Shown here piece by piece: positions 7,101-47,546 of a DNA stretch of 64,000 bases. Where the stretch lies: assembly GCF_000716595.1 (NCBI RefSeq), contig NZ_JNXC01000030.1, forward strand, positions 1-64,000, given 5' to 3'. A model generated the notes under the pieces. That model made no database searches. It worked only from the letters and a program-made list of their open reading frames with translations, and had not been told where the DNA came from. Position numbers and translations under genes: made by a program. Numbering within the stretch: the stretch's first letter is position 1; each line of letters opens with the position of its first letter. This DNA comes from Saccharothrix sp. NRRL B-16314 (GTDB lineage: Bacteria > Actinomycetota > Actinomycetes > Mycobacteriales > Pseudonocardiaceae).

Positions 7101-10100
7101 ACCGCGTCCGTGCGAACGGGTACTCAGGCATCGGCACCCGCCTCCCGCCACGCACGACGTCGGGCCAGGACACGTCGGCGCCGCGGACGTACAGCTCGCC
7201 CAACGCCTCCAGCACCGCGACCACCGCCGGCCGATCGGCGCGCAGGCCCGCCAACCAGCCGTGACCGCCCGAGTCGGTCAGCACCTCACCGGGCCCGACC
7301 TCCAGGCAGGTGTGCTCCGCCACGGCCGACAGCACCAGGTCGAACCGGACCGGCCTGCGGGCCTGCCGCACCAGGTACTCGGCGTCGGGCCGCCACCCCA
7401 CCGGCCTGACCTGCCCGTCGAGGCCGCTGACGAACGGAACCGTCACCGGCCGCAGCGAGGGGACGTGGTCCCGCAACGCCGGCAGCACCGGTTCGAGCAG
7501 GGCGGTGTGGAACGCGCCGTCGACCGGCAGCCGTCGCCCCTTCAGCCCTTCCTCGCCGAGCAGCTGTTCGGCCCGGCGCACGTTCTCCAGCGACCCGGCC
7601 AGCACGTGCGCAAGCGGACCGTTGACCGCCGCGACCTCCGTGCCACTGGCCCGCCCGATCCGGTGAACGACCGCCGCGTCGGCCCACAACGCGAGCATCC
7701 CGCCCGCCTCGCACCGCGCCGCCAGCCGTCCCCGCGCCCCCGTCAGCCGCACGCCGTCCGCGACGGAGATAGCCCCGGCCACGCACAGCGCCGCGTACTC
7801 GCCGAGGCTGTGCCCGGTGACGAGATCCGGCCGAAGCCCGAAGCTCTCCCACAGGCGGCCCAGCGCCACCTGGAAGGCGAACAAGGCCGGCTGCGCGGTC
7901 TCCGTCGGCCACACCTCGCCCGGCCGCGGGTCCGCGTCGACCAGGAGCCGGGTCAAGCCCGCCCCGAACTCGGCCGCGTACACCTGCTCGCACTCGTCCA
8001 GCACGCGGCGCACGACGGGGAACGCCGCGTACAGGTCGCGCGCCATGCCGTACCGGGCGACGCCTTGCCCGGGGAACGCGAACACCAAGCGGCCCAACGG
8101 TTCCGCGGCGGGCGCCACGCCGTCGAGACCGCTCGCCAGCTCGGCCGGGTCCGATCCGACCACGGCGACCCGGTGCGGCAAGTGCGGGCGGCCGAGCGCC
8201 AGGGTCGCGGCGGCATCGGCCACGGGCAGCGACGGATGGGCGGTGAAGTGGGCGCGCACCCGATCGGCCAGCGTGGCGAGCGCCTGCGGACCACGGGCGG
8301 ACAGCGGCACGATCACCGGGCCGGCGGACGGCGGTGACGCCTCCCGCACCGGCGGTTCCTCCAGCACGACGTGGACGTTGGTCCCGCCCACGCCGAGCGC
8401 GCTCACCCCCGCTCGCCGGGGCAGGCCGTCGGTGGTCCACTTCCGCAGCGCGGTGCCGAGAACGAAAGGACTTTCCGCGAGGCGCAACTGCGGGTTCGGC
8501 CGGTCGAGGTTCAGCGTGGGCACCAGTTCGCCGTGCTTCACCATCAGCACAATCTTGATCAGCCCGGCCATGCCCGCGCAGCTGTCCAGGTGGCCGATGT
8601 TGCCCTTCACGGAGCCGAGCGTGCAGAACCCGCGGCGGTCGGTGCCCGCGCCCACCGCCCGTGACAGCGCCGTGAACTCCACCGGATCGCCCAGTTCGGT
8701 CCCCGTCCCGTGCGCCTCGACGTACGAGAGCGAGTCGCCCGGCACCCCCGCCCGCCGCAGCGCGCGTTGCACGACGTCGACCTGACCCGCCACACCGGGT
8801 GCGGTGAAACCCGCCTTGCCCGAGCCGTCGTTGTTGACCGCGGAGCCGAGGATCACCGCGTGCACGGTGTCGCCGTCCGCGATCGCCCGGTCCAACCGCT
8901 TCAACAGCACCGCGGCCACACCGTTGCCGCCGACCGTGCCGTCGGCTCGGGCGTCGAACGGCCGGCAACGCCCGGAAGGCGACAGGATGGAGCCGGTCGA
9001 GCTGCGGTAGCCGGACTCCTGCGGCAGGTGCACGGCAGCCGCACCGGCCAACGCCATGTCCGCCTCGCCGTTCACCAACGACTGCACGGCCAGGTGCACC
9101 GCGACCAGCGCCGTCGAGCACGCGGTCTGCACGCCGATCGCCGGACCCGTCAACCCGAGCCGGTAGGCGACCCGCGTCGCGAGGAAGTCCGGTTCCCGGC
9201 CGATGGCCGCCTGCAACCGCTCGGCGGGATCGTCCGATCGGGTCGTGGGCATCCCCTGGTGGCCGTAGAGGTTCATTCCCGAACCGGCGAACACCCCGAT
9301 CCGGGCGTCCGCCGCGCCGGCGTAACCGCCGTGCTCCAACGCGTGGTAGCAGCTCTGGAGGAACAGCCGCTGCGCCGGGTGGGTCGACTCGGCCTCACGC
9401 GGCGTCATGCCGAAGTACTCCGCGTCGAACGCGTCGACGTCGTCCAGCGCTCCGATCGTGAGCACCCGTCCCGGATCGGCGGTCAGCTCGGCCGGCACGC
9501 CCGCCGCCGCGGCCTCGGCGGGGGAGAACGTGCGGGTGCTGTCGACGCCCGCGCGCAGGTTGAGCCAGAACTGGTCGACCGATGCCGCTCCGGGGAACCG
9601 CGCGGCCAGCCCGATGATCGCGATCCTGGTGTCGGGCGTCGCGGGCGGTGCCGGCTCAGGTGCCGTGGCCGATCCACCACCGGCCAGGTGCCGCGCCAAC
9701 GCCTCGATCGTCGGGTGCTCGAACAGCGCGGTCTGCGGAACCGGCGTGCCGAGCCCTTCCTCCAGGCGGCGTCGGAGCCGGACCAGCGTGACGGACGACA
9801 AACCGGCGTCGTAGAAGGGTTCCCGGTCGCCGATGCGTTGCCCGGCCACCTCGGCGACGGCGTCGGCGAGCAGCCGTCGGAGTCCGGCGACGTCACGGCG
9901 AGGGCGGTCGGGCCGCAGCCGGTCGCGGAGCTTCGACCGTTGGACCTTGCCCGCCGGCGTGCGGGGGAAGTCCGCCGGTGGCACCGGAACGACGTGCGCC
10001 GCCGTCAACCGCAACCTGCCGTACAGCGAGCGCTTGATCTCACCGACGATCCGCGCGTCGTCGGTCCCCGCGCTGACGAAGAAGACGGCGAGCGCTTCGC

Positions 10101-11568
10101 TGCCCGTGCGGTCGTCCGGGACACCGCACGCGGCGACGTCCCCGATCCGGACACCGGGCACGGTCGCCGCGACGCCCTCGATCTCGTGCGCGAAGTGGTT
10201 GTGCCCGTTGAGGATGATCACGTCCTTGTGCCGCCCGGTGATCACGATCTGCCCGCCGGACAGGAAGGCCAGGTCACCGGTGTCCAGCCACTCCCCGTCC
10301 ACGAACGCCGCCGCGGTGGCCTCGGGATCGTTGTGGTAGCCCGCCGTGACCCGCACCGACCGGATCAGGAGTCGCCCGATCCGGTCCTCGGGCAGCGTCG
10401 ACCCCTGCTCGTCCACCACCCGCACGCTCGCCTCGTGAGCCGGTTCCCCGACCGCGATGAACGTCGAGCAGTCCTGGTCGGGCACCGTGTCGTCGGCGTG
10501 CGCGAGTCGACCGCCCAGGCTGGAGGTCACCACCCGCAGCACCGTGCCCGGTCGGTCGAGACGCCCGTAGCTGATGGCCGTCGTCGTCTCCGCCATGCCC
10601 CACGCGGGCACCACGTGACGCTCCTCGACACCGCAAGGTCCCAACGCGGTGAGGAACCGCCGCAGCACCGGCAACAGGATCTGCTCACCGCCGCACGTCA
10701 GGGACTTGAGACCGGACAGGTCCCAGTCCGGCTGCCGGTCCGCGAGCGCGTCCGCGACCATCTGGAAGGCGAACGTCGGCGCCCAGCTGTGGTTCGCCCG
10801 GTGCTCGGCGATCAGGTCGAACCACCGCGGGGGATCGGCCAGCACGACCTCGGTCGGCACGTGGACGTTCGTGCACCCGGCGAACACCGTCATCAGGTGG
10901 TAGAGCAGCAAGGCGCCGCTGTGGTCGAGGGGCAGCCAGTTCAACGTGACGTCGTCGGCCCGCACGTCCAGGATTCGGCGTGAACTCGCCGCGAACCGCA
11001 CCAGCGCCTCATGGGTCAGACCGATCGCCTTCGGCAGGCCGGTGCTGCCGGAGGACAGCATCAGCAGGGCGACGTCGTCGAGCGGCACCTCGGCGAAGTC
11101 GTCGGCGGGTTCGTGCCGGGAGCACTCGGCCATCGTGACCGCCCGCGTCGAACGACCCGCGGTCGACGGATCGGCGAGCACCAGCGGCTCGCCGAGCAAC
11201 GCCCACGTGTGCCGCAACCGCTCGGCCACGGGTGAGCCCTCGTCGGCGGGCTCGGCGATCACCGCCGGTCGGATGCCGCCGAGCAGGCACGCCCAGAACG
11301 CCGGGAAGAAGTCCGCCAACGGGAGCCCGCAGAGCAGGACGGAATCCCCCGGGTTAACGCCGTGTGCGCGCAGTCCACTGAGGACCCGTCGCGCACGGTC
11401 GAGGAGGTGCGGGTAGGTCAGCAGATCGGACCGCCCCTCCGCGTCGACCACCACGACCCCGGCGTCCGGCCGCGTCCGAGCGGCACGGGTCAGCGCCGAC
11501 AGCACGGTTCGGGGGTCGTCGTCGGCGAGGTCGAGCTCGGGACCTCGGTAGGTGGTGCTTCCGGCCAC
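1186..11568 (-). CDS. hybrid PKS-NRPS megasynthase (AL-ACP-KS-AT-ACP-LLM-C-A-PCP-C)
   Basis: About 3460 aa carrying a whole short assembly line. Domains by approximate residue: acyl-AMP ligase 1-560 (SSGSTGLPKA near 173); ACP (Ser about 589); ketosynthase 645-1070 (TACSTA Cys about 817, HGTGT, NIGH); acyltransferase 1160-1480 (GHSLGE, Ser about 1252; GAFH in the HAFH position suggests malonyl-CoA); ACP (GADSL, Ser about 1546); luciferase-like flavin monooxygenase 1676-2006; condensation 2026-2440 (HHIVFDS); adenylation 2455-2950 (YTSGSTGRPKG); PCP (GGHSL, Ser about 2985); terminal condensation domain 3033-3446 (NHAICDA). There is no thioesterase or reductase. The A-domain pocket read by eye, D-V-Q-F-F-A-Q-I-I-K, resembles proline codes at its start only, so the substrate is open. 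GTG at 11568 is preferred because GGGGAG lies 7 nt upstream; GTG 11589 is the alternative. It follows the exporter gene by 24 nt. PVPVPVP and REPN linkers separate ACP2 from the monooxygenase. Confidence 0.93.
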   Translation of the reverse strand: MAGSTTYRGPELDLADDDPRTVLSALTRAARTRPDAGVVVVDAEGRSDLLTYPHLLDRARRVLSGLRAHGVNPGDSVLLCGLPLADFFPAFWACLLGGIRPAVIAEPADEGSPVAERLRHTWALLGEPLVLADPSTAGRSTRAVTMAECSRHEPADDFAEVPLDDVALLMLSSGSTGLPKAIGLTHEALVRFAASSRRILDVRADDVTLNWLPLDHSGALLLYHLMTVFAGCTNVHVPTEVVLADPPRWFDLIAEHRANHSWAPTFAFQMVADALADRQPDWDLSGLKSLTCGGEQILLPVLRRFLTALGPCGVEERHVVPAWGMAETTTAISYGRLDRPGTVLRVVTSSLGGRLAHADDTVPDQDCSTFIAVGEPAHEASVRVVDEQGSTLPEDRIGRLLIRSVRVTAGYHNDPEATAAAFVDGEWLDTGDLAFLSGGQIVITGRHKDVIILNGHNHFAHEIEGVAATVPGVRIGDVAACGVPDDRTGSEALAVFFVSAGTDDARIVGEIKRSLYGRLRLTAAHVVPVPPADFPRTPAGKVQRSKLRDRLRPDRPRRDVAGLRRLLADAVAEVAGQRIGDREPFYDAGLSSVTLVRLRRRLEEGLGTPVPQTALFEHPTIEALARHLAGGGSATAPEPAPPATPDTRIAIIGLAARFPGAASVDQFWLNLRAGVDSTRTFSPAEAAAAGVPAELTADPGRVLTIGALDDVDAFDAEYFGMTPREAESTHPAQRLFLQSCYHALEHGGYAGAADARIGVFAGSGMNLYGHQGMPTTRSDDPAERLQAAIGREPDFLATRVAYRLGLTGPAIGVQTACSTALVAVHLAVQSLVNGEADMALAGAAAVHLPQESGYRSSTGSILSPSGRCRPFDARADGTVGGNGVAAVLLKRLDRAIADGDTVHAVILGSAVNNDGSGKAGFTAPGVAGQVDVVQRALRRAGVPGDSLSYVEAHGTGTELGDPVEFTALSRAVGAGTDRRGFCTLGSVKGNIGHLDSCAGMAGLIKIVLMVKHGELVPTLNLDRPNPQLRLAESPFVLGTALRKWTTDGLPRRAGVSALGVGGTNVHVVLEEPPVREASPPSAGPVIVPLSARGPQALATLADRVRAHFTAHPSLPVADAAATLALGRPHLPHRVAVVGSDPAELASGLDGVAPAAEPLGRLVFAFPGQGVARYGMARDLYAAFPVVRRVLDECEQVYAAEFGAGLTRLLVDADPRPGEVWPTETAQPALFAFQVALGRLWESFGLRPDLVTGHSLGEYAALCVAGAISVADGVRLTGARGRLAARCEAGGMLALWADAAVVHRIGRASGTEVAAVNGPLAHVLAGSLENVRRAEQLLGEEGLKGRRLPVDGAFHTALLEPVLPALRDHVPSLRPVTVPFVSGLDGQVRPVGWRPDAEYLVRQARRPVRFDLVLSAVAEHTCLEVGPGEVLTDSGGHGWLAGLRADRPAVVAVLEALGELYVRGADVSWPDVVRGGRRVPMPEYPFARTRFPVPPQVEPQVNSQVEPAREPVPPDVLDAVREAAAEVLGLHVDAVAPDGSFFALGADSLALMSLGRVLDRRFGINVPMRTLITEADTPRKLASLVKPRTAPQPAQVPVAAPNGLREPNDAREPNGVRDLVDRQLHLSERLVGLMERQLAALSAPDVTPPVPVPVPVPRTRAPQPVPVPEPLITAEPASSCDFSLYFFGDYPEQDESDKYALITAATEFADRHDFHAVWLPERHFHSFGALFPSPPVLAAWLAAKTKQIRLHAGSVVLPLHNPIRVAEEWSVVDNLSHGRVGLCVASGWHARDFALAPENYGRHKELVHAQLDTVRRLWAGEAITTKSGSGDDVDVSLYPRPVQSSPPLFLAVVGNPDSYRRAAEQDLGVVTNLMTQTVDQLADNIALYRRTRAERGLDPAAGRVVVLVHTYLGADAEQARAEAFRPFCDYLRSTLSLFDQVTNSLGFEIDLENTPPADVDFLLERAYERYCASRALIGSEQTAAPVVDRLVAAGANEIACFVDFGVPTDDVLAALPAVDRLRLRHRSRPLPLSPAQRRIWFLEQLHPGSSAYHEPKAVRFDGPLDVDALTGALNRAVNRHPELRVVFREVDGEPHRVVLPEIDLDCPVLDFTGYDEQDALRSVLATEGKRVFSLPDGPLILARLLRLGPDRHLLFLVVHHIVFDSSSSAVLVDDLAAHYRAWPARPVGLAPVAVRAPVEADPAAKDRDLAFWRRELADLPVLDLPTDRPRGGVRTGAGASTTREFGPDLLRDLRSFGAEHRTTVFMSLLSAIGVVLGRFAGQRDVVVGTAVANRPPGAEREVGLFLDTVAVRLDLSGDPAFTTLLDQVRERTTAAYEHRDVPFDELVRALNPERDAGRNPLFQVMVEFEQEGEVAFDPPALSARLLDVPSDRAPFDLTIYLSQHREGVRCMIEYDTALFDECSVARVLDYVELVLRRAMAAPASRLSELTPLTEGDRAAVGSWQGAPVDPPGLCLHELVSLQAQRTPDAVALLGDGVELRYRDVDERANRIAARLRARGVGRGDVVAVLLPRGPDLITAVLGVLKSGAAYLPLDPGLPAARSAFCVEDSSAVLLLTTAGAPDWAGLPVQLVEDVDGSDFVPGGGSPDDPAYCIYTSGSTGRPKGVLVPHRGPVNLVRWHLERHDALRTAQWTSLSFDVSVQEIFTTLAAGATLVLVDEESRHDLAAVVARYRVERLFLPFTPLKYLVEAQPELPSLREVFSAGESLVLTPALRQFLAGHPGCRLHNQYGPTEASIIVTSHRVDPEGEPRPPIGTPIDGVRLRVVDAAGRDVPIGVPGELLIGGEPVALGYVGQDSPAFAPDQDGAKVYRTGDRVRWRSDGTVDFLGRFDDQVKIRGHRVEPGEAESVLAGLDGVVDAAVVVRESRGEPELVAYVVPARAEAEVASYQRDLERVLPDHLVPRRWVSLDRLPHTVNGKLDHSRLPVPAGPVAEPAQGPSTRAERLLHDSWRAELGVDAVPVTRSFFELGGHSLTALRLVNRMARDHGVEVTMTEFFRTPTIRALARRLDDGVVVDTAPMPSSLRRLWQRHHERTDPSVYNVVQRVDIDGELDVAALTRAFREVVRRHAALRSRAVQRDGDLLVEVLAAVEVDLPVTTLTGDLDVDRWCREAADEPFSLGEAPLFRLRLGRLDGSRWVLVVVLNHAICDAWSLGVLWRDLTGLYAGSPALPPVQAQYPDYARWEHRQLSGDGRASLERFWRAELAGVPLRPALPVDRPRPARLSGRGGLHEFVIGRDVADRVGRVAAELGSTPYTVLVSAYAVWLAARCGQPDVVVPASSVNRLRPEHEDVFGFVGDAVLLRARVSAAADFADLVARMGTTVYSALDHQALPLTEVARLLDPDTADALFPTTLFTVVTTGPATFSLPNATAAVHVPAREGLARNELYVVLAPSDDGLRVVMEYSTDLFDETTVVSFGATFAETLARLTYDPRQSLRQWVSAPNG

Positions 11569-11592
11569 GTTGCCGCTCCCCAATCCCACCGC

Positions 11593-38491: not shown

Positions 38492-38968
38492 CGGGTCCCA
38501 CCCCCTTCACCGCCGCGCCGCCCTGCCCACCGCACCGCCCACCGCACCGCACCGCCCTGCCCGCACCGCCGCCGCAGCACCGCCCTGCCCGCGCCGCACC
38601 GCCGCACCGCCTGCGCCGCAGCCCTGCCTGCGCCGGTCTGCCCGCCGCGCCGCACCGCACTGCCTGCCCGCACCGCTGCCCTGCCTGCGCCGTGCGGCCG
38701 CGCCGCACCGGCCTGCCCCATCGCTGCCCTGCCGGCACCGCCGTCCTGCCTGCGCTGCCGCCGCACCGGTCTGCCCGCACCGCTGCCCTGCCTGCGCCGT
38801 GCGGCCGCGCGGCACCGGCCTGCCCCATCGCTGCCCTGCCCGAACCGCGCCGCCGCCCTGCCTGCGCTGCCGCCGCACCGGTCTGCCCGCACCGCGCCAC
38901 ACCGTCGCACCGTCGCACCGGTTGTGGTCGCCGTGACCCTCACCGGCCCGCGCGCCGACCCGTGATCG
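38492..38968. other. gene-free low-complexity region
   Basis: The 477-base gap between convergent genes is nearly all C-rich degenerate strings (CACCGC, CTGCCC, CTGCCTGCGCCG) on the plus strand, with a higher-order 107-112 bp tandem repeat inside. Open frames across it are translations of simple repeats, not genes. Confidence 0.75.
38664..38882. repeat. tandem repeat, two copies of 107 and 112 bp
   Basis: Copies begin at CTGCCCGCACCG at 38664 and 38771, and a partial third begins at 38883. The two full copies differ at a few bases and by a 5-bp insertion. The strong strand bias (C on plus) is striking. Confidence 0.8.
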
Positions 38969-41236
38969 TCAGATGTGCCACAACCCCGGTCGGCCCGACG
39001 TCGACACGTCGACCGGCTCGACCGCACCCGAACCCCGGGACACCTGGAGGAAGTAGGTGCTGAGGTGGCTCAGCCGAAGTCGCCCCAGCAGGCGGGCGTA
39101 GGACTCGCGGACCCGGTCCGGGGCGGCGTCCGCGATGGCGGCGACGGCCGGGACGAGCCGCTCGAACACCGCGCCACCCTCCGCGAGCCGCGCGTGGGAG
39201 ATCACGGTGCAGCGGAGCGCCAGGTCGTTCTCGCGTGCCAACACCGACAACCGCTCGACCAGCGGGCCGGGGGTGCCGTCGGTCAACGTCATGCCCGCGA
39301 GGTGCGCGCGCCCGCGGTCGGTGAGGGCGTCGGGCAGTCCGGCGAGCACGCGTGACGTCACCCGCAGGCCGTCCTCCCCGCCGTGGCCGACGCGCGGTCC
39401 CGGGAGGTCCGCCGGGTACGGCAGGGTCGGCGGGTTGGCGACCACCAGGTCGAAGCGGCGTCCGGCGACGGGCTCGTAGAGGTCGCCCGGCAGGACCTCG
39501 ACGCGGTCGGCCACTCCGTTCAACCGGGCGTTGAGCCGGGCGATCCGGGCGACGCGCGGGTCGAGCTCCACCGCGGTGACCTCGGGCGCGAAGCGGGCGC
39601 AGTGCACGGCGTGCAGGCCGGGGCCGGCGCAGAGGTCGAGGCAGTTCCGGGCACCCGCCGGCGTCAGGCGGCTCAGCAGGGCCAAAGAGTCGTCCCCGAG
39701 GTAGAAGAGCGGGTCGGCCTGGGGCGGGTGGCAGATCACCCAGCTGCCGCAGACGAGCAGGACGACGAGATCGGCGGCTGCGACCCACCCGTCCCGTTCA
39801 GCGAGCAGGCCGGCCGTCGTCAGACCGGGCACCAGCGCCGCCAGACCGGGCGGTAGCGCGCTCGGACTCACGCTCTGCCCCAGCAGGAACAGGTCGACCA
39901 CCGGGCCGAGAGCGGGCGGCAGGTGGGTCCGGGCCGCCCGCCACGCCGACGGGTCGAGGACGAACGGGTCGAAGCAGGTCAGGAACTCCCCGTACCCGGA
40001 CCGGGCCAGCTCCTCGCCCAGCCGCTCCACCGCGCCGGTGACGGCCTGCGGGGTGCGGAGGAACAGGCCGCCGTGCAGCATCCGCTCGACCGCCTCCGTG
40101 CCGTCGAGCGGTGCGGAGCCGTTACCCGCCTTGCCGTTGCCCGCCTTGCCGTTGCTCAGCGTGCTGTTGACGACCGCCTCGGCCTCGGCGACCGAAGTCC
40201 GGCCGTCGCAGAGCAGGAGCAGCGCGAACTCCCGCTCCGAGAGCCGCAACGACGCGCCGAACTCGTTCAGCCGGGCGACGGCGATCCCCGTGTCGGAGCG
40301 GAAGAAGTCGACGTCGAACTCGATACCGGGCAGGACCGGGCCGGGCGCCGGCGCCCGATCGCCATCCCACAGCGGGGTGCGGGGCACACCGTCGGACGTG
40401 CCGAGAAGACGTCGCTCCGCCCACGCGAACGCCGCCCGCGCGAAACCGGCGCAACGCACCGCGTGCGCGACCGCCGACTCCGGTTCCGGCAGTGCCGGTG
40501 CCCGGTGGAGGTCCCAGAACGCGCGATCCGCACGCACACCGGTGGGCCGCAGCCACAGCGGGCGCTCCCAGTCGAGAGGGAGCCGCGCCAGCAGACGGCT
40601 GCGCCACTTGGGGTTCGGGTTCGTGAGGTGGTGGCCAGCGAGCAGGCCGTCGACGCCGTGGCCGAGGAGGTCCTGCGCGGCCAGGACGAACGTGGCGTAG
40701 TCGCCTTCGGCGCGATACCCGACGAGGTCCACCTGGATGGTGCGGGCCTGGTGGCGCGCGACCTGGAGCTTGAGCCGCGCCAGCTCCGACCGGTCCGGCC
40801 GCCACGGCTGCGCCACGGGCTCGAGCGGGTGGACCACGAGCCCTTCGCGCAACCGGTGCAGCAGCAGCCGCTCGTCGTCGCTGAACGGGGCCAGCTCGAC
40901 GAGGCTCCACGGCCGCCGCGCCCAGTCGCGCAACTTGCCGGTCAGCGCCTCGACGGTCGCCGGGTGGAGGATCCGCAGGTCGACCATGCTGCGCCCGACG
41001 GCCCAGCACAGCTCCGTCTCCGCGTGCCCGACGTCGTCGCCCGCGACGAGCAGAAGGTCGAGGTCGGACTTGTCGTTGGCGAGGCCCTCCGCGACGGAGC
41101 CGACCGCCAGGACCAGGTCACCGGGCCGCAACCCGACGGCCTCGTCGATGCTCGCCACGAGCGCCGCCTGGTCGGTGCCGCACCGGGCCAGGCACGTCGC
41201 CAGCGCGTCACCGGCGCGGGTGGTGCTGCTGCTCAC
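38969..41236 (-). CDS. fusion: nucleotidyltransferase, PqqD-like region and class I methyltransferase
   Basis: A 755-aa fusion. N-terminal nucleotidyltransferase motif AVGSVAEGLANDKSDLDLLL (about 43-62) has the GS and DLD metal residues. A region at about 305-365 (ARLNEFGASLRLSEREFALLLLC, then DGRTSVAEAEAVV) resembles PqqD/RRE winged helices that bind peptide leaders. The C-terminal half is a SAM methyltransferase with LDLCAGPGLHAVHCA (about 530) and NPPTLPYP (about 600), like the NPPY motif of N-methylases with Tyr replaced by Thr. Its GTG start overlaps the diiron gene stop (GTGA), so it is last in that unit. No known protein with this architecture comes to mind; nucleotidyl transfer plus methylation of a peptide- or carrier-bound substrate is an inference. 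Confidence 0.8.
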   Translation of the reverse strand: MSSSTTRAGDALATCLARCGTDQAALVASIDEAVGLRPGDLVLAVGSVAEGLANDKSDLDLLLVAGDDVGHAETELCWAVGRSMVDLRILHPATVEALTGKLRDWARRPWSLVELAPFSDDERLLLHRLREGLVVHPLEPVAQPWRPDRSELARLKLQVARHQARTIQVDLVGYRAEGDYATFVLAAQDLLGHGVDGLLAGHHLTNPNPKWRSRLLARLPLDWERPLWLRPTGVRADRAFWDLHRAPALPEPESAVAHAVRCAGFARAAFAWAERRLLGTSDGVPRTPLWDGDRAPAPGPVLPGIEFDVDFFRSDTGIAVARLNEFGASLRLSEREFALLLLCDGRTSVAEAEAVVNSTLSNGKAGNGKAGNGSAPLDGTEAVERMLHGGLFLRTPQAVTGAVERLGEELARSGYGEFLTCFDPFVLDPSAWRAARTHLPPALGPVVDLFLLGQSVSPSALPPGLAALVPGLTTAGLLAERDGWVAAADLVVLLVCGSWVICHPPQADPLFYLGDDSLALLSRLTPAGARNCLDLCAGPGLHAVHCARFAPEVTAVELDPRVARIARLNARLNGVADRVEVLPGDLYEPVAGRRFDLVVANPPTLPYPADLPGPRVGHGGEDGLRVTSRVLAGLPDALTDRGRAHLAGMTLTDGTPGPLVERLSVLARENDLALRCTVISHARLAEGGAVFERLVPAVAAIADAAPDRVRESYARLLGRLRLSHLSTYFLQVSRGSGAVEPVDVSTSGRPGLWHI

Positions 41237-42129
41237 TGCGGACCGAGTCCGATCTGGTGCAGGACCGGGGCGGGCGCGGCGTCGGTGGCCTTGGCCCGGC
41301 ACGTGGGTCGACGCGCGCAGCACGCGACCGAGCAGTCGAACACGTTGCCGCCCAGCTCCTCGGTCGTGATGGTGTTGAAGTCGTGGAACCGCCTGCGGAA
41401 CAGCGCACGCAGCCGGTCGGGGTCGGCGTCGCGCCCGATCTCGTCCACCAGGACGGCGGTGTAGGCGATGTGGGCCAGCTCGTCGGTCAGCAGCGCGTCG
41501 TGCAGCTTCGTGACCTTGTCCTGGTTGCCGGGCGGGCAGTGCTCGGCGAGCGCCGGCCGCTGCATCGTGTGGTGGATCGCGGTGCGGATCTCCGCGATGT
41601 TCATCTGGAGGAAGTCGTCGATCGTCGGCACCTTGGCGTACGGCGAACCCGGCACCGGGAACAGGTCCTGCCGCATCGTGAACCCGGGCGAGAGCTGCCG
41701 CAGCTCGACGCGGAACTCCGGTGAGACCGCACCGGGGAAGGCCAGGTCGAGGAGCGACAGGTAGATCAGGGAATGCCGGGACTCGTCGCAGGCGTGCCGT
41801 TTCAGCAGGTGCTGTTGCCGTTCGTCCACCGAGCACGCGGCGAGGGACCACAGCCGCTTCGAGCCGTCGCCCTCGCGCTCCGCGTTCGTGATGAGCGACA
41901 CCGCCATCCATTTCGGTTCGACCGAGAGGCTGCGGTAGATGAGGCCGTACTCGCGGGTGCCGAACGGTGGCGGTTCGTCCTGCAGTGCCAGGTCGAGTCC
42001 CGCGAAGTAGCGCGGACATTCCAGACCCGGGTGGTGCAGGCGGACCGCCACCTCGGCGATCGATCGAATGAGGTCCGCAGACGGCTCGCGCTCGAGCAGC
42101 GTGTGCGCGAGAAGAATGTCATTCGACAC
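41233..42129 (-). CDS. ferritin-like diiron oxygenase (AurF-like)
   Basis: A 298-aa soluble helical protein with the four-helix diiron pattern: Glu in NAEREGDG (about 83), ExxH in CDESRHSLIY (about 113-116), Glu in IAEIRTAIHH (about 180) and ExxH in DELAHIAYT (about 219-222). Such enzymes use O2 for N-oxygenation or C-H oxidation. The C-terminus carries a Cys cluster (DCSVACCARRPTC) not usual in AurF, possibly a second metal site. GTG 42129 has GGAGG 5 nt upstream. It follows the 73-aa protein gene by 52 bp and overlaps the fusion gene. Confidence 0.8.
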   Translation of the reverse strand: MSNDILLAHTLLEREPSADLIRSIAEVAVRLHHPGLECPRYFAGLDLALQDEPPPFGTREYGLIYRSLSVEPKWMAVSLITNAEREGDGSKRLWSLAACSVDERQQHLLKRHACDESRHSLIYLSLLDLAFPGAVSPEFRVELRQLSPGFTMRQDLFPVPGSPYAKVPTIDDFLQMNIAEIRTAIHHTMQRPALAEHCPPGNQDKVTKLHDALLTDELAHIAYTAVLVDEIGRDADPDRLRALFRRRFHDFNTITTEELGGNVFDCSVACCARRPTCRAKATDAAPAPVLHQIGLGPQ

Positions 42130-42181
42130 ACAGACCTCCGCAATTCCCGCGATTGACGACCGGTGCGACGGGTGGATCAGG

Positions 42182-42403
42182 TCAGACGGCCTGCGACTTG
42201 GCGTCGAAGGGCGAGTTGAGCGCGACGAACGCGACGTCCGCGTCGGGGTACTTCTGCCGGATCTGGTCGAGCGTCGGCTGGTCGAGCTGCAACTCGCCGT
42301 TCTTGATCCGGCCGGTCAGCACCATGCCGGTGCGGTTCTCCTGAAGTGTCTTCGCCGCATCCGCGAGTCGCGCTTCGTCGGCCGGGCGCTTTTCATTCGC
42401 CAT
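42182..42403 (-). CDS. 73-aa small protein, candidate peptide substrate or carrier
   Basis: A 73-aa protein: a charged helical N-terminus (EKRPADEARLADAAKTLQEN), a middle TGMVLTGRIKNGELQLD, then TLDQIRQKYPDADVAF and a short tail VALNSPFDAKSQAV. No Cys, no signal peptide. ATG 42403 has AAGG 8 nt upstream. It is the first gene after a Crp-type site and is followed by the diiron and fusion genes. Its position in front of two tailoring enzymes, one with a PqqD-like segment, makes a modified-peptide precursor or amino-acid carrier plausible. It might equally be a small accessory subunit. Confidence 0.75.
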   Translation of the reverse strand: MANEKRPADEARLADAAKTLQENRTGMVLTGRIKNGELQLDQPTLDQIRQKYPDADVAFVALNSPFDAKSQAV

Positions 42404-42428
42404 GTCCGTGCCTTTCGTCAAACATATC

Positions 42429-42444
42429 TGTGACTTAGTTCACA
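42429..42444. promoter_or_regulatory. Crp/GlxR-type site TGTGA-CTTAGT-TCACA
   Basis: This perfectly matches TGTGA-N2-TA-N2-TCACA, the consensus for actinobacterial Crp/GlxR proteins and E. coli CRP, within an 18-bp palindrome (42428-42445). It lies 26-41 bp upstream of the ATG of the 73-aa protein gene, close to or overlapping the likely promoter, suggesting cAMP-receptor-type control. Confidence 0.7.
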
Positions 42445-42651
42445 GTTGCCGTCAGCGTACAGTGGGTCGACGGGACCGGCAAGGGATTCGGAACGCCTTG
42501 ACCGGGGGAGCGAATTGTTCATCCGATGCGGTCACTCATAAGTGGCGCACATGACAGATCTATTGTCCGACGCCCGTCGTCGCGTCACCGGGCAGTGGTT
42601 CCGTCATCATTTCCGGGTAGCTCGTTCGGTGCAGTGGGTAGCGCTGCGGAA

Positions 42652-43509
42652 TCACCGCGCCGCCGCGATCCACGTCCGGAACAGCAGCCGATTCCGACCC
42701 TCGCCCGGCTCGTTCTCGAACGCGGTCCGCCCGTGCACGATCGTCCGGTTGTTGATGACGATCAGCTGCCCCGGTTCGAGGCGGCGGTAGGTCCGCAGGT
42801 CCTCCCGGGCGAGCAGCGCGTCCAGCCGGTCCATCGCCCGCACCTGGAGCCGGGACAGCGGCGCGATGCCCGGCCGGCGGTGCGCGCTCTCGACGTACTC
42901 GCGCAGGTAGGTGATCCGCGGCGACCCGCCGTCGAACTCCAGGATGGACCGAGGCACCGTCGCCGGCCGGTCGGGGCGGCCGTCCCGGGTGTCGAAGTGC
43001 ACCGGCTCGCGCAGGGCGGCCACCACGTCCGGCTCCAGGCACAGCTCGCGCACGAGGTCGTCGACGTGGACCAGCACGAGCGCACCACCGGACGCGGCCT
43101 GCCGGACGCAGTGCAACGTGAAGTAGGCCGGGATCTCGCCGGGCCGGTGCATCCCATCGGTGTGCAGGTTCCCGCCCTGGCGGGTGTCGGAGTAGCGCAC
43201 GGTGGCGCCGCTCTCCAGCGTCACCCCGCGGTCGCGCACCTCGCGGATCATCTCGCCGTCGAAGTCCTGCGGCATCGGCCAGCCCAGCATCGCCGACACG
43301 GCCAGGACGAAACGGCGGGCCGCCTCCTCGTCCAGCTGCCCGAGCCCGGACAGGACGAGGTACCCCGGTCCGGACGACAGGCACCGCCCCTCGTGGTCGT
43401 GCAGCGCCGCCGCCAGCGCCTCGCACGCCGCGGGTTCGCCCCGGGCCACCCCGCTCACGAGCAGCGGGTCGACTTCGCAGGTCGGCACGTTCAGGGTGCT
43501 GTGGTTCAT
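42652..43509 (-). CDS. TauD/clavaminate-synthase-type Fe(II)/2-oxoglutarate dioxygenase
   Basis: A 285-aa dioxygenase. Facial triad residues are visible: HTD (about residue 121) and distal His in IVHGRTAF (about 256), followed by the 2-oxoglutarate-binding Arg in NRLLFRTWI. The family hydroxylates or desaturates amino acids and similar small molecules. Its ATG overlaps the stop of the ATP-grasp gene (ATGA), so it ends the four-gene coupled unit. A 248-bp gap with the Crp-type site separates it from the 73-aa protein gene. Confidence 0.88.
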   Translation of the reverse strand: MNHSTLNVPTCEVDPLLVSGVARGEPAACEALAAALHDHEGRCLSSGPGYLVLSGLGQLDEEAARRFVLAVSAMLGWPMPQDFDGEMIREVRDRGVTLESGATVRYSDTRQGGNLHTDGMHRPGEIPAYFTLHCVRQAASGGALVLVHVDDLVRELCLEPDVVAALREPVHFDTRDGRPDRPATVPRSILEFDGGSPRITYLREYVESAHRRPGIAPLSRLQVRAMDRLDALLAREDLRTYRRLEPGQLIVINNRTIVHGRTAFENEPGEGRNRLLFRTWIAAAR

Positions 43510-44741
43510 GTCGTCGCCAAGTCCTCCGTGGACGCACCGGACCGCCGTGAACACCAGTCGGCGATGTCCGGCCCGTGATGGCTCAGCCCGGCCAGTTCGA
43601 TGTCGGCGACCGCCCGGCCGACGCGGTCGCACGCCTGCGCGCGGCTCGACCCGGTGGCCAGCACCTGGCTGGTGATCGTGTCGAACACGACCGCCAGACC
43701 GCCGTCGAGCGCGCAGTCGACGACCACGCCCGGCCGCGGGCCGGGCAGCCGCACGCCGGTGAGCAGTCCGGGCTTCCCACCGCGGACGAACAGGTGGGCC
43801 TGCGCCACGTGCGTTCCCCGCGTCACCACGTGCCCGAGCCGGTGTCCCATGGCGAGGCGGAGTTGCAGGGCGATGAGGTCGATCCCGGTCCGCGCCTCGC
43901 AGATCCGGTAGGACCCGGTCAGCCGCGCGTTGACCTCCAGGAAGGCGTAACCGCCGGGGTGGACGAGGAATTCGACGGTCGCGAGGTTGCGCAGGCCGAG
44001 CGCGCACGCCAGCCGCACCGCGTCGGCCCGCATCGCGCGAACGAGCACGTCCGGCACCCCGAGGACCGGCGCCGCCTCCAGCAGCTTGCGGTTGCCGGCC
44101 ACCAGCAGGGACTCCCGCTCGTCCAGCCGGACCACGTGGCCCGCGTCGTCGGCCGCCACGGTCACGCCGACCACTCGGGCCGCCTCGACGTACAGCTCGG
44201 CGTACCAGCCGGAGTAGCCGCCGAGGGCAGCGGTGAGGTCGGCCCGGCTCCGGACCACTCGCACTCCGTCGCCGTGGTGGAGGTCCGACCGCTTGAGCAC
44301 GACCGGCAGGCCGTGCCGGTCGACCAGCGCCCGGATCGCCCGCTCCCCGACGGCGTGCGGCAGCACGGGAACGCCGACCCGCTCGGCGGCCTCGGCGGCC
44401 GAACCCTTGTCCCCGGTGACGGCGAGCGCGGAGGCGGGCGGCCCGACGAAGCGGATGCCGCGCTCGGCAAGTTTCCTTGCCAGCAAGGGGTTCTCGGCGA
44501 CGGCGCCCGGCCCCGGGTGGACGGCGTCCACCCGCGCGTCCTCCGCGGCACGCACGACGCAGTCGACGCAGCCGTAACCGCCGCAGCCGGTGTCGTCCAG
44601 GACCACGTGACCTGCCACGGCGTGCCGGCGTTGCGGATCGGACCGCGCCACCACGGTCACCGGCACCAGGCCGAGCGCACGGCACGACTCCACCGCCCGC
44701 ACCGCCGGCGTTCCGCGCGCGGCGATCAGCACCGATCTCAT
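43506..44741 (-). CDS. ATP-grasp enzyme related to biotin carboxylase
   Basis: A 411-aa protein with the biotin-carboxylase/carbamoyl-phosphate-synthase ATP-grasp layout: VHPGPGAVAENPLLARKL (about 95-112), FVGPPASALAVTGDKG, ATP-binding VVLKRSDLHHGDGV and metal-binding FLEVNARLTGSYRICEA (about 290). No biotin carrier or carboxyltransferase is nearby, so it more likely forms an amide or activates a carboxylate (inference). ATG 44741 overlaps the stop of the ThDP-enzyme gene. Confidence 0.85.
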   Translation of the reverse strand: MRSVLIAARGTPAVRAVESCRALGLVPVTVVARSDPQRRHAVAGHVVLDDTGCGGYGCVDCVVRAAEDARVDAVHPGPGAVAENPLLARKLAERGIRFVGPPASALAVTGDKGSAAEAAERVGVPVLPHAVGERAIRALVDRHGLPVVLKRSDLHHGDGVRVVRSRADLTAALGGYSGWYAELYVEAARVVGVTVAADDAGHVVRLDERESLLVAGNRKLLEAAPVLGVPDVLVRAMRADAVRLACALGLRNLATVEFLVHPGGYAFLEVNARLTGSYRICEARTGIDLIALQLRLAMGHRLGHVVTRGTHVAQAHLFVRGGKPGLLTGVRLPGPRPGVVVDCALDGGLAVVFDTITSQVLATGSSRAQACDRVGRAVADIELAGLSHHGPDIADWCSRRSGASTEDLATT

Positions 44742-45874
44742 CGGCCCGCCACGGGCTCGGCGGCGACCGGACCGACGCGGCCGTCGGACGCCACCCGCTG
44801 GAACCTCGCCCGGATCTCCCGGTTGCCGTAAGTCGAGGTGACCCGCGGCGGCGTGCGCGAACCGCCGGGCGCGATGCACAGCGCGACCAGGTGCGGGCCG
44901 GGCGTGCCCGCGATCCGCCGCAGGCACTCGTGGATCTCCCCGACGGTCCGGCAGACCGCGCCGGTGCGGTAGCCCACGGACAGCGCGAGGCGGTCCCAGG
45001 CCACCGGGTGATCGCGCGTCCGCTGCCCACCGGTCGAGTCGAACGTCCCGTTGTCGAGCACCAGGTGGGTGAGGTTGGCCGGCCGGCAGTCGCCGACCAG
45101 CGCCAGGCCGCCGAGGTGCATCAGGGCCGACCCGTCGCCGTCCACCACGACGACGGGCAGGTCCGGCCGGGCGATCGCGGTGCCGAGACCGAGGCCGATC
45201 GCGTGGCCCATGCTGCCCTGCATGTAGAAGTTGCCCGGGTCGTCGCGCAGCCCGAACAGCTCCCGGCTGATCATGCCGGTGGTGCTGTAGACCAGCGCGC
45301 CGTCCAGGTGCGCGGCCACCGCCGTGATCGCGTCCCGGCGCTCCATCGTGGTCTCCGCGGCCGAGTCGGCGCGGGGGCACGAGCCGAGCGTCGCCTTCGG
45401 CACGAGCAGCGCGTAACCGCGGTCCCGCCGGAATTCCTCGTCCGCGCGGTCCAGCGCGGCGGTGAGGCTTCCGGTCGACGGCTCCAGCACACCGTGCGCG
45501 AGCCCGATCGCGTCCAGCAGCGCGGTCGTGCTGCGGCCCATCACCTCGTGGTGCGGCTCGTCGTCGTCCGCGCACGGCCACCCCCGCAGGCTCATCACGA
45601 TCAGCAGCGGTATCCCGTACGGCATCAGCAGGGACGTCAGCGGGTCGAGCAGGTTGCCCAGGCCGGAGTTCTGCACCAGGAGCGCGGCACGACGACCGGC
45701 GAGTTGGGCGCCGGCCGCCATCGCCGTCGCCACACCCTCGTTGGGCGCGGGCACGTAACCGGCGCGGTCCTGGAGCCGGGAGAACGGTCCTTGCAGGTAG
45801 GAACAGGGAACGCCGCTGAAGAAGCCGAACCCGCGCGCCTCCAGCTCCCGGCAGAACGCCTCCGCCTCGATCAC
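44738..45874 (-). CDS. ThDP-dependent decarboxylase like phosphonopyruvate/sulfopyruvate decarboxylase
   Basis: A 378-aa single-chain ThDP enzyme. The N-terminal Pyr domain has FFSGVPCSYLQGPF and the activating Glu in PAPNEGVA; the PP domain has the GDGS ... metal motif (VVVDGDGSALMHLGGLA, with LDNGTFDSTGGQ). This arrangement is specific to the phosphonopyruvate decarboxylase (Ppd) / sulfopyruvate decarboxylase group. No PEP mutase or sulfonate gene is in the window, so the true 2-oxoacid substrate is unknown. GTG 45874 overlaps the methyltransferase stop (GTGA) and the end overlaps the ATP-grasp gene. Confidence 0.85.
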   Translation of the reverse strand: MIEAEAFCRELEARGFGFFSGVPCSYLQGPFSRLQDRAGYVPAPNEGVATAMAAGAQLAGRRAALLVQNSGLGNLLDPLTSLLMPYGIPLLIVMSLRGWPCADDDEPHHEVMGRSTTALLDAIGLAHGVLEPSTGSLTAALDRADEEFRRDRGYALLVPKATLGSCPRADSAAETTMERRDAITAVAAHLDGALVYSTTGMISRELFGLRDDPGNFYMQGSMGHAIGLGLGTAIARPDLPVVVVDGDGSALMHLGGLALVGDCRPANLTHLVLDNGTFDSTGGQRTRDHPVAWDRLALSVGYRTGAVCRTVGEIHECLRRIAGTPGPHLVALCIAPGGSRTPPRVTSTYGNREIRARFQRVASDGRVGPVAAEPVAGR

Positions 45875-46569
45875 GCGCCCCGCTCCTCCCGCTCGGCGGT
45901 CCCGGTCCTCGCCTCGCCGACGTTCCCTGCCGCCTCGAAGAGGCAGTGCCAGTGGTACGAGCCGGGCGCCGACTGCTCGGCGTCGAAGCCGTTCAGCAGC
46001 TCGAACCCCCGGTGCAGGCGGACCAGGTCGGCCGCGTCGACGTACAGGTGCGGGTGCACCTTGTCGTCCTCGGCCTCGGGCTGGACGAACGTGTTCGGCG
46101 ACACCTCGACGCCACGGCCGTACTGCGCGTTGCGCTTGGACAGCATCGTGGACTGGTAGAGGCCACCCGGCCGCAGCACGCGGCGCACCTCGGCCAGCGC
46201 GCGGCCGAGGGCGACCTCGTCGGCGTGGTAGACCACGTTGAAGGCCAGCACCAGGTCGACGCTCGCCGTGGGGCAGGGCAGGTCCGTCACGTCGGCGACG
46301 TCGACCGCGACGGCCAACCCGTGCCCGGCCGCCTCGGTGCGGACGTGCGCCACGGCGGCGTCACTGCGGTCGACGGCCCGGACGGCGAAGCCCTCCGCGG
46401 CCAGGTAGAGCGAGTGCCGGCCGATCCCGCAGCCGAGGTCGAGCACGTCCCGGACGCCGCGGTCGCGCAGCGGCTCGACGCTCGCGACCACCCAGGGGTG
46501 CGGTGTGGACCAGTCGGCCCGTCCTTCGTCGGTGCGCCACATCTGGTCCCAGTAGAAGTACGCGGTCAC
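45871..46569 (-). CDS. SAM-dependent methyltransferase
   Basis: A 232-aa class I methyltransferase with SAM motif I VLDLGCGIGRHSLYLA (about residue 43) and the downstream motifs DVTDLPCPTASVDLVLAF and LRPGGLYQST. The fold resembles TehB/UbiE-type small-molecule methyltransferases. It is the first gene of the four-gene coupled unit. GTG 46569 lacks a strong ribosome-binding site. Confidence 0.87.
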   Translation of the reverse strand: MTAYFYWDQMWRTDEGRADWSTPHPWVVASVEPLRDRGVRDVLDLGCGIGRHSLYLAAEGFAVRAVDRSDAAVAHVRTEAAGHGLAVAVDVADVTDLPCPTASVDLVLAFNVVYHADEVALGRALAEVRRVLRPGGLYQSTMLSKRNAQYGRGVEVSPNTFVQPEAEDDKVHPHLYVDAADLVRLHRGFELLNGFDAEQSAPGSYHWHCLFEAAGNVGEARTGTAEREERGA

Positions 46570-46892
46570 GGAAATACCCCGACGGGCCCCGAGCGACCGG
46601 CGGCACGCAGATCAATAACACGCAATCGAGTGAACAATATGTGCACCTGGTCGAGTGACGGGAATTGCGCATCGTGGTGACCGCCGAGTCGGCCGTCCGT
46701 TCTCGCGCTGCCCGAGGTGTCGCACATCCACGCCCTCCCAACGGATTTGGCGGTCAGAGTAGCGGGTGCGGACTTGTTCGGCGTGTCGGAATCGAGCGCG
46801 TCCGGCGACGGTCCGCTTATCCTCTGGAAAAGCGACCCGCCACCGGTGCGGGATTCTGCGATGGAGGATTCGACGATGTCAGGTCGACGGGT
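46570..46892. other. divergent intergenic region of the biosynthetic locus
   Basis: A 323-base region between the methyltransferase and the kinase-like gene. An AT-richer segment at 46608-46645 probably holds the minus-strand promoter. It contains two direct copies of CGAGTGA (46630-46636 and about 46654-46660). Confidence 0.4.
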
Positions 46893-47546
46893 GTGATCGT
46901 CGCGTTGGACGGCCCGGACGGTGCCGGGAAGAGCACCCAGGTCCGCGAACTCGTCGCGTGGGCCCGCGCCGAGGGCCGCACGGCCGCTGTCGTCGGCAAG
47001 TGGGACGTGTTCCGGCCCGGCGTGGTGCCGCAGGCGCGGTTCCTCCGCGGCACCGACCAGGTGGACCTGCGCACGTGCATCGCGGAGATGCCGTCACCGT
47101 CCCGGATGCTGTTCCTCGGCTGGATGAACACCACCGCCGCCACCCGCGCGCGGCAGGCCACCGAGGACCTGGTGATCCTCGACGGCTACTGGGCCAAGCA
47201 CGCCGCCGCGGAGCTGCTCGCCGGTTGCCCGCCGGCGCTCGTGCACGCGATCACCGCGGCGATCGCCCCGGTCGACCACGTCGTCTACCTGGACGTCACG
47301 CCGGAGGAGGCGTTGCGCCGCAAGGGCTCCGACCTCGCCCCGTACGAGTGCGGCCGTGACCCGGGTTGCTCTCCCGCGCGTTTCCTGGCCCACCAGTCCG
47401 CGGTGCGGGAGGTGCTGCTCGACTGGGCGAAGACCCATGCCTGGCACGTGATCAGCGCCGACTCCCGGCAGACCGTCCAACACCGACTCCGGGACCACGT
47501 CGGGGCCGTGCCGGGAACGAGGGCCGCGGTCGAGCCGCTCGTGTGA
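46893..47546 (+). CDS. thymidylate-kinase-like P-loop nucleotide kinase
   Basis: A 217-aa kinase with P-loop DGPDGAGKST in the N-terminal VIVALDGPDGAGKST segment, as in dTMP kinases. The usual DRY/DRW motif reads LDGYW, so the catalytic Arg is Gly. A CxxxPxC-like segment (CGRDPGCSPARF) sits in the lid region. It may phosphorylate a non-thymidine substrate. GTG 46893 gives a compact N-terminus; the frame is open further upstream. It diverges from the biosynthetic operon and could belong to it. Confidence 0.75.
   Translation: MIVALDGPDGAGKSTQVRELVAWARAEGRTAAVVGKWDVFRPGVVPQARFLRGTDQVDLRTCIAEMPSPSRMLFLGWMNTTAATRARQATEDLVILDGYWAKHAAAELLAGCPPALVHAITAAIAPVDHVVYLDVTPEEALRRKGSDLAPYECGRDPGCSPARFLAHQSAVREVLLDWAKTHAWHVISADSRQTVQHRLRDHVGAVPGTRAAVEPLV

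Follow-up and report, generated by a model that had tools for sequence, protein, structure and literature searches.

Actinomycete gene clusters that pair phosphoenolpyruvate (PEP) mutase (PepM) with phosphonopyruvate decarboxylase (Ppd) (PMC12723261), ribosomally synthesised and post-translationally modified peptides (RiPPs) with N-methylated side-chain amides such as polytheonamide and aeronamide (PMC11285071), and the ferritin-like and haem-oxygenase-like (HDO-type) diiron oxygenases (MiaE, aldehyde-deformylating oxygenase, UndA and HrmI) are among the closest known systems to a compact locus of Saccharothrix sp. NRRL B-16314. The locus spans positions 38969-47546 of the window, the 64,000-nucleotide stretch of contig NZ_JNXC01000030.1 analysed here, and its eight genes encode a kinase, a methyltransferase, a Ppd, an ATP-grasp enzyme, a TauD-type oxygenase, a 73-residue peptide, a predicted diiron oxygenase and a nucleotidyltransferase-methyltransferase fusion. 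We read it as half of a phosphonate pathway with a peptide scaffold and put the probability of this reading as a whole at about 0.6; all grades of confidence given here are judgements.

The locus resembles the PepM/Ppd clusters in that its Ppd exceeds the family cut-off, TauD and ATP-grasp tailoring genes accompany it, and PepM occurs in its nearest relatives and on another contig of the same genome (C14). It differs from those in the part of PMC12723261 available to us in that its own pepM appears to be lost and one is present in another cluster. That part of the paper describes a different cluster and does not mention a peptide-diiron pair or a nucleotidyltransferase-methyltransferase fusion. 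According to the accessible part of PMC11285071, PoyE and AerE methylate the side-chain amides of Asn residues in RiPPs, and the window shares with these systems a short peptide beside tailoring enzymes, a methyltransferase related to Protein Data Bank (PDB) entries 7rc2-7rc6 and a conserved tail Asn. Unlike them, it has a nearly invariant peptide tail, a ferritin-like diiron oxygenase and phosphonate genes, and no proteusin-type maturases were recognised in the block. An earlier reading of the DNA, made from the letters only (the sequence-only reading), knew of no pathway with this set of genes; for the product this still stands, as no described cluster of this kind is among the matches listed in the open-access literature, subscription journals lying largely outside the scope. 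What the locus suggests is a set of phosphonate genes centred on a ribosomal peptide and on a family of diiron oxygenases that has an entry in neither Pfam nor NCBIfam.

The features of the window locus are as follows.

46893..47546, plus strand: dTMP-kinase-like P-loop kinase, divergent from the operon (Pfam/NCBIfam and homologues; start inferred from relatives)
45871..46569, minus strand: S-adenosylmethionine methyltransferase (Methyltransf_25, 78.6 bits), its last codons remnant pepM sequence
45875..45912, minus strand: pepM 3'-end scar, directly 5' of the Ppd start codon and in frame with the methyltransferase gene
44738..45874, minus strand: Ppd, a thiamine diphosphate (ThDP) enzyme (TIGR03297; GDG...N motif)
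43506..44741, minus strand: biotin-carboxylase-like ATP-grasp enzyme, probably a ligase (Pfam/NCBIfam and motif alignment)
42652..43509, minus strand: TauD-type Fe(II)/2-oxoglutarate oxygenase (TauD 74.9 bits; HTD...H)
42182..42403, minus strand: 73-residue peptide, probable RiPP-like precursor or scaffold (conservation across loci)
42206..42229, minus strand: FVALNSPF motif (residues 59-66 of the peptide), in a C-terminal region for which no secondary structure is predicted
41233..42129, minus strand: predicted ferritin-like diiron oxygenase, 298 residues, the peptide's constant partner
38969..41236, minus strand: fusion protein, 755 residues (weak NTP_transf_2 match and HemK-like methyltransferase)
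40187..41236, minus strand: fusion, N-terminal half: nucleotidyltransferase of the pol-beta type (G-S...SD.D motif), its own gene in proteobacteria
38969..39949, minus strand: fusion, C-terminal half: domain resembling amide N-methyltransferases (NPP motif; 7rc2-7rc6 the closest solved chains)

Four-base overlaps join methyltransferase to Ppd, Ppd to ATP-grasp, ATP-grasp to TauD, and diiron gene to fusion. On gene set, coordinates, overlaps and divergent kinase, the sequence-only reading was right.

Recurrence of the gene block

Scanning genome contigs with a profile of 18 aligned diiron proteins (A1) gave 13 loci (L006-L018), which were compared with the window by tblastn of its proteins and by clustering of called genes; L018, around whose diiron gene the gene caller found almost nothing, is left out of statements on gene order. 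The block recurs in the nearest relative, 'Nocardia' sp. NRRL S-836 (L006; Lentzea in another source), in an Azospirillaceae metagenome-assembled genome (MAG; L007) and in a Rhizobium (L008), and in part in Burkholderia cepacia (L009), a member of the Rhodobacterales (L010) and two Shewanella loci (L011, L012). Three Rhizobium plasmids carry further copies (L027, L065, L029). PepM and Ppd lie near the diiron gene in eight loci (L006, L007, L008, L011, L012, L027, L065 and L029). Homologues of several of the genes thus adjoin each other in other phyla, so their grouping is not due to chance, and the proposal that they serve one pathway, for which conserved synteny of the diiron, TauD, ATP-grasp and fusion proteins had been suggested as a test, is upheld. 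The nucleotidyltransferase and methyltransferase that are fused in the window and in L006 are separate genes in proteobacteria, which further supports a common pathway.

The plasmid cluster of Rhizobium leguminosarum ATCC 14479 (L027, NZ_CP030762.1) is annotated in PLSDB as asnB, a phosphocholine cytidylyltransferase family gene, TauD, three hypotheticals (peptide, diiron and nucleotidyltransferase), aepY, aepX and a methyltransferase, and ends with two hypotheticals that weakly match the HprK and thymidylate kinase families. It has eight functions in common with the window (PepM, Ppd, TauD, peptide, diiron, nucleotidyltransferase, methyltransferase and kinase). Unlike the window, it has nucleotidyltransferase and methyltransferase as separate genes, and its AsnB, phosphocholine-cytidylyltransferase-like and HprK-like genes replace the ATP-grasp and first methyltransferase genes. 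This cluster and that of L065 (NZ_CP090100.1), both complete, lie near repABC and beside recombinase or transposase genes, on plasmids that PLSDB types as conjugative. In B. cepacia LK29 (L009:12039-14974), two separate genes for a PEP-utilising mobile domain and a PPDK_N domain come after the peptide, diiron and nucleotidyltransferase genes.

Genome sampling found loci in 3 of 390 genomes of the window's family (its own genome and the L006 strain among them) and in 1 of 394 of its class, its own. The family of G783 gave 4 of 394, of which one is G783 and another a weak fragment at 8e-4 (L061, left out here), the family of G784 gave 2 of 398 including G784, and the phylum of G785 gave G785 alone (1 of 398).

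Ppd, pepM and a second phosphonate cluster

The window Ppd passes TIGR03297 with 324.4 bits against a cut-off of 312.5 and has the GDG...N motif. It is the only Ppd above the family cut-off in the genome, the next match scoring 25.6 bits, and it also matches sulfopyruvate decarboxylase subunits below their cut-offs. The suggestion that the pathway starts from a 2-oxoacid is borne out, and because relatives hold PepM beside Ppd and the window holds a pepM scar, the 2-oxoacid is most likely phosphonopyruvate. The absence of a PEP mutase, which the sequence-only reading took for a trait of the pathway, does not hold as such: PepM stands beside Ppd in six nucleotidyltransferase-type relatives (L006, L007, L008, L027, L065 and L029) as well as in the two Shewanella loci. 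An ordinary 2-oxoacid pathway without C-P chemistry was rejected because the relatives have PepM and the window has the scar.

The genes of L006 run kinase, methyltransferase, PepM, Ppd, ATP-grasp, TauD, peptide, diiron and fusion; the window has the same order except that the methyltransferase adjoins Ppd directly. PEP_mutase-family searches of the genome matched nothing on the window's contig, and an overlooked PepM in the window was rejected accordingly. The DNA alignment of the window with L006 continues past the Ppd start, back into the 3' end of the L006 pepM, where the 38 bases 5' of the window's Ppd start are identical to that end at 31 positions; the best of 924,912 ungapped control placements on other loci reached 25 of 38. 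Read in frame, the window methyltransferase ends ARTGTAEREERGA where the L006 PepM ends TRTAEWEEWGA, and the L006 methyltransferase's own end is very different. An alignment of PepMs places the natural end of the protein at EVFALTRTAEWEE in L006 and EVFELMDYQEIEE in C14, those of L007, L008 and L027 ending slightly earlier. Since this stretch has the appearance of the protein's own terminus, a loss on the window's side is likelier than a gain on that of L006, and pepM has very probably been lost from the window locus. Between window and L006, the scar is roughly as diverged as the sequence around it (82-83% identity).

The genome (98.97% complete, in 273 contigs) contains three PEP_mutase-family matches above the Pfam cut-off and one below; the three were scanned for the EDKxxxxxNS signature. 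Only one of them has it, as EDKVFPKMNS, on contig C14 (25.7 kb), and this one passes TIGR02320 with 363.3 bits (cut-off 319.55).

C14, about 22-38 kb (L023:10996-19899, L024:141-6716): phosphonate cluster, by profile matches

Around this PepM are a PhnW-like aminotransferase (348.3 bits, just below the cut-off of 360.8), an FAD-NAD(P)-binding protein, a 2-hydroxyacid-dehydrogenase-like protein and a zinc alcohol dehydrogenase. The cluster also holds an ArgC-type reductase, a PGK-family protein, an iron alcohol dehydrogenase (190.9 bits to TIGR03405, cut-off 423.7), an NTP_transf_5 protein, a PNPOx protein, a FomA-like kinase and a dTMP-kinase-like kinase that is a relative of the window kinase; homologues of the latter occur in related clusters too. 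No Ppd was found in it by the genome-wide Ppd search. The two clusters are complementary, the signature PepM being on C14 only and the above-cut-off Ppd in the window only, and from this complementarity we consider it reasonably probable that C14 supplies phosphonopyruvate to the window pathway. The L006 genome has no PepM of the C14 type, its best match being the in-cluster gene at 40% identity. Relatives of both halves stand together in the Shewanella cluster, with PepM, Ppd, FAD protein, aminotransferase, PNPOx, the diiron gene, and amino-acid-kinase-type and dTMP-kinase-like kinases. In the part of PMC12723261 available to us, pepM is the marker of the survey; a survey of that kind would flag this genome through C14 but miss the window locus, its pepM being gone.

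The peptide and its diiron partner

The peptide and the diiron enzyme are the constant core of the block: in 19 of 21 loci the diiron gene has a peptide gene upstream of it (that of L026 is weak), and the pair was seen across four bacterial phyla, combined with partner enzymes of three kinds. FxAxN(A/S)PF is kept in all 120 peptides among the matches listed of 204, the window's included, and Asn63 does not vary among the 23 peptides aligned. The peptide has only chance-level Pfam matches, and a fold search with its model gave 42 matches, none at E <= 0.001. In the model a helix, a hairpin and a second helix precede residues 52-73, which have no secondary structure. A GG-type motif was seen in one distant relative only. 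LysW-type amino-group carriers have Zn-binding cysteines and a C-terminal Glu; this role was rejected for the peptide, which has no Cys and ends ...SQAV without Glu.

Searched against Pfam and NCBIfam, the diiron protein matched nothing up to E 1, and a PDB sequence search with its profile returned one chance match only. Its model is all-helical and ferritin-like, and E86, E116xxH119, E180 and E217xxH220 are invariant in 23 aligned sequences. The diiron assignment, first made by eye, is thus supported, though not proven, by the model and the conserved residues.

In five loci (L013:2639-5263, L014:9520-12377, L015:9677-12343, L016:9640-12398 and L017:1268-4192), from Rokubacteria, Chromobacterium, Sphingomonas and an actinobacterial MAG, the pair is followed by an IucA/IucC-FhuF type synthetase of the nonribosomal peptide synthetase (NRPS)-independent siderophore (NIS) class, identified by Pfam for L014 and by clustering for the others. 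These may represent a peptide pathway that ends in a siderophore-type condensation. On the cyanobacterial Dolichospermum plasmid NZ_CP043057.1 (L028:11486-13971), a peptide with a leader-like LSPNEMQQLNGG stretch, a diiron gene and a JmjC_2 gene stand in a row. At L066:7845-8839, the gene for a 70-residue peptide in which the motif is nearly repeated (FLACNMAF and FMACNSPF) overlaps a diiron gene of only 33% identity. The JmjC-type neighbour and the near-duplicated motif fit a peptide that is a substrate. A distant diiron relative in the window strain's family (L026:4213-14257, contig C15 of G015) has around it a second ferritin-like protein, a ThDP enzyme, an APH(6)/hydroxyurea-kinase-like gene, a PhyH-like oxygenase and a 529-residue AsnB-like gene.

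The residue after Asn63 may be connected with phosphonates. Where the peptide has NSPF, the genome or plasmid has PepM in 8 of 8 cases (window, L006, L007, L008, L027, L065, L029 and L066), counting the L006 gene, which is below the TIGR02320 cut-off, and L065 by annotation. Where it has NAPF, PepM was found in one of five searched genomes (L009; L010, L014, L015 and L018 had none over the cut-off), L013, L016 and L017 being left out of the count. Fisher's test gives p 0.007, or 0.048 with near relatives merged by hand (5/5 against 1/5), for a grouping chosen after the data were seen. The PepM of L066 is encoded on a separate contig, within a different kind of cluster, and that of the L009 genome is in a PhnW/Ppd cluster also present in the other Burkholderiaceae genome examined. 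The association of Ser64 with phosphonates is only a lead.

Proposed pathway and rival explanations

The remaining enzymes bear on what would be made. The earlier call of a carboxylase-type ATP-grasp enzyme was right as to descent, which is biotin-carboxylase-like, and wrong as to the reaction it suggests: RLTGSY (RLTGAY in L006) stands in place of the bicarbonate motif RIQVEH, whose Glu, E296 of E. coli biotin carboxylase, is the general base. A carboxylase was therefore rejected, and the loss of the motif speaks for a ligase. The TauD protein keeps HTD...H in 5 of 5 aligned sequences; its nearest solved relatives are 7n7v and then FrbJ, an oxygenase of the phosphonate FR-900098 pathway, and it also resembles TmpA. 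The NTP_transf_2 match of the fusion is weak (17.5 bits, below the cut-off of 21), and the pol-beta G-S...SD.D signature is kept in 7 of 7 sequences. N231, P232 and P233 of the methyltransferase half are invariant in 6 of 6, and its best solved relatives are 7rc2-7rc6, with 7rc2 first of 32 matched sequences (E 1e-21, hmmsearch with the A6 profile); these are probably AerE, an asparagine N-methyltransferase of the aeronamide RiPP pathway, although the literature searched for 7RC2 did not name this protein. Other solved matches are a gentamicin N-methyltransferase, HemK glutamine methyltransferases, and RNA and arginine methyltransferases, and N-methylation is a likely, not a certain, activity of this half. 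The prediction of an oxygenated and methylated, peptide-linked product is borne out in gene content.

In the pathway we propose, the PepM of C14 would convert PEP to phosphonopyruvate, since the pepM between methyltransferase and Ppd appears to have been deleted, and the window Ppd would turn this into phosphonoacetaldehyde. TauD would then oxygenate the phosphonate, and the first methyltransferase, the kinase and the nucleotidyltransferase would methylate and activate it. In parallel, the ribosomal 73-residue peptide would act as a scaffold recognised by its N-terminal part, its FVALNSPF tail being the target of the diiron oxygenase and of the amide-N-methyltransferase half of the fusion, with Asn63 the likely acceptor of methyl and oxygen. 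The ATP-grasp ligase, the nucleotidyltransferase half or both could join the tail to the phosphonate. The gene set with its recurrence, the scar, the complementary PepM and Ppd, and the constancy of the motif and of the peptide-diiron pair are observations; the individual reactions, the role of the peptide as substrate, the partnership of C14 with the window and the final coupling are inferred. We hold it very likely that the pathway is of the phosphonate type, and we lean towards the peptide as a modified scaffold over a partner subunit; that phosphonate and peptide are joined is doubtful. Equally tentative is the fullest version, a phosphonate-RiPP hybrid made by half of a pathway that depends on the pepM of another cluster, with the phosphonate on the N(A/S)PF tail (perhaps on Ser64) once ferritin-like diiron peptide oxygenases of a new family have oxidised that tail.

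Several observations weigh against this reading. The model of the peptide is a low-confidence one (pLDDT 66.8). Variable cores are the rule in RiPPs, and this tail hardly varies; the full motif is missing from the peptides of L026, L028 and L067. L009 and L010 have peptide, diiron and nucleotidyltransferase genes with no PepM or Ppd found in the stretches compared, and five loci pair peptide and diiron with the IucA/IucC-type synthetase, so the pair can do without phosphonates. Pfam and NCBIfam revealed no protease or exporter among the eight genes at 38969-47546; one may lie elsewhere in the genome. The scar covers the probable Ppd ribosome-binding site and is perhaps conserved for its own sake, the pepM deletion may be an assembly error, though the scar diverged like its surroundings, and the L006 pepM-like gene scores 287.1 bits, below the TIGR02320 cut-off, though it has the signature. 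Finally, the two Shewanella loci have diiron and phosphonate genes and no peptide was found there.

This last point, together with the tail's constancy in all 120 listed peptides, as expected of a binding tail, would fit a peptide that serves the diiron enzyme as a small partner protein, a subunit for regulation or recognition. Diiron enzymes with small partners include methane monooxygenase with component B and MbnB with MbnC. The product would then be a small phosphonate, and the diiron enzyme, TauD and both methyltransferases would act on small molecules. We think this unlikely, given the kinship of the methyltransferase half with a probable peptide-asparagine N-methyltransferase, the near-duplicated motif of L066 and the leader-like stretch of the Dolichospermum peptide; the pair's neighbours (nucleotidyltransferase, NIS synthetase, JmjC-type gene) also vary as RiPP tailoring sets do. 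Just as unlikely, in our estimate, is that the window holds a decaying, non-functional phosphonate cluster and that C14 is independent and needs no Ppd. The deletion of pepM would fit decay, and the 2-hydroxyacid-dehydrogenase-like enzyme beside the C14 PepM could reduce phosphonopyruvate without Ppd. However, the remaining genes of the block are open and overlapping, most with the third-position GC signature of coding sequence, and the PhnW-like aminotransferase and iron alcohol dehydrogenase of C14 would fit phosphonoacetaldehyde and thus call for a Ppd, of which the window's is the only one found. A switch of Ppd to another 2-oxoacid (sulfopyruvate or one derived from an amino acid, for example), leaving a locus that no longer makes phosphonates, would suit the missing PepM, the margin of only 12 bits over the cut-off and the sub-cut-off sulfopyruvate decarboxylase matches, but it is improbable beside the PepM in the nearest relative's operon and in the same genome and the resemblance of TauD to FrbJ and TmpA.

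As to the gene calls, the kinase more likely starts at GTG 46893 than at 46665, because its product of 217 residues then fits the 212-216 residues of three relatives. A simple GC-frame picker scored reverse-frame open reading frames above the ATP-grasp, TauD and fusion genes; their frame is settled by homologues in other genomes. GC-rich, low-complexity near repeats (CTGCCCGCACCG and similar, judged by eye) fill positions 38500-38930, between the block and a SpoIIE-type phosphatase gene. Elsewhere in the window (1186-11589) lies a gene for a 3467-residue hybrid NRPS-polyketide synthase with two condensation, two adenylation and three carrier domains, one ketosynthase, one acyltransferase and a luciferase-like monooxygenase, adjoined by a major facilitator superfamily transporter gene.

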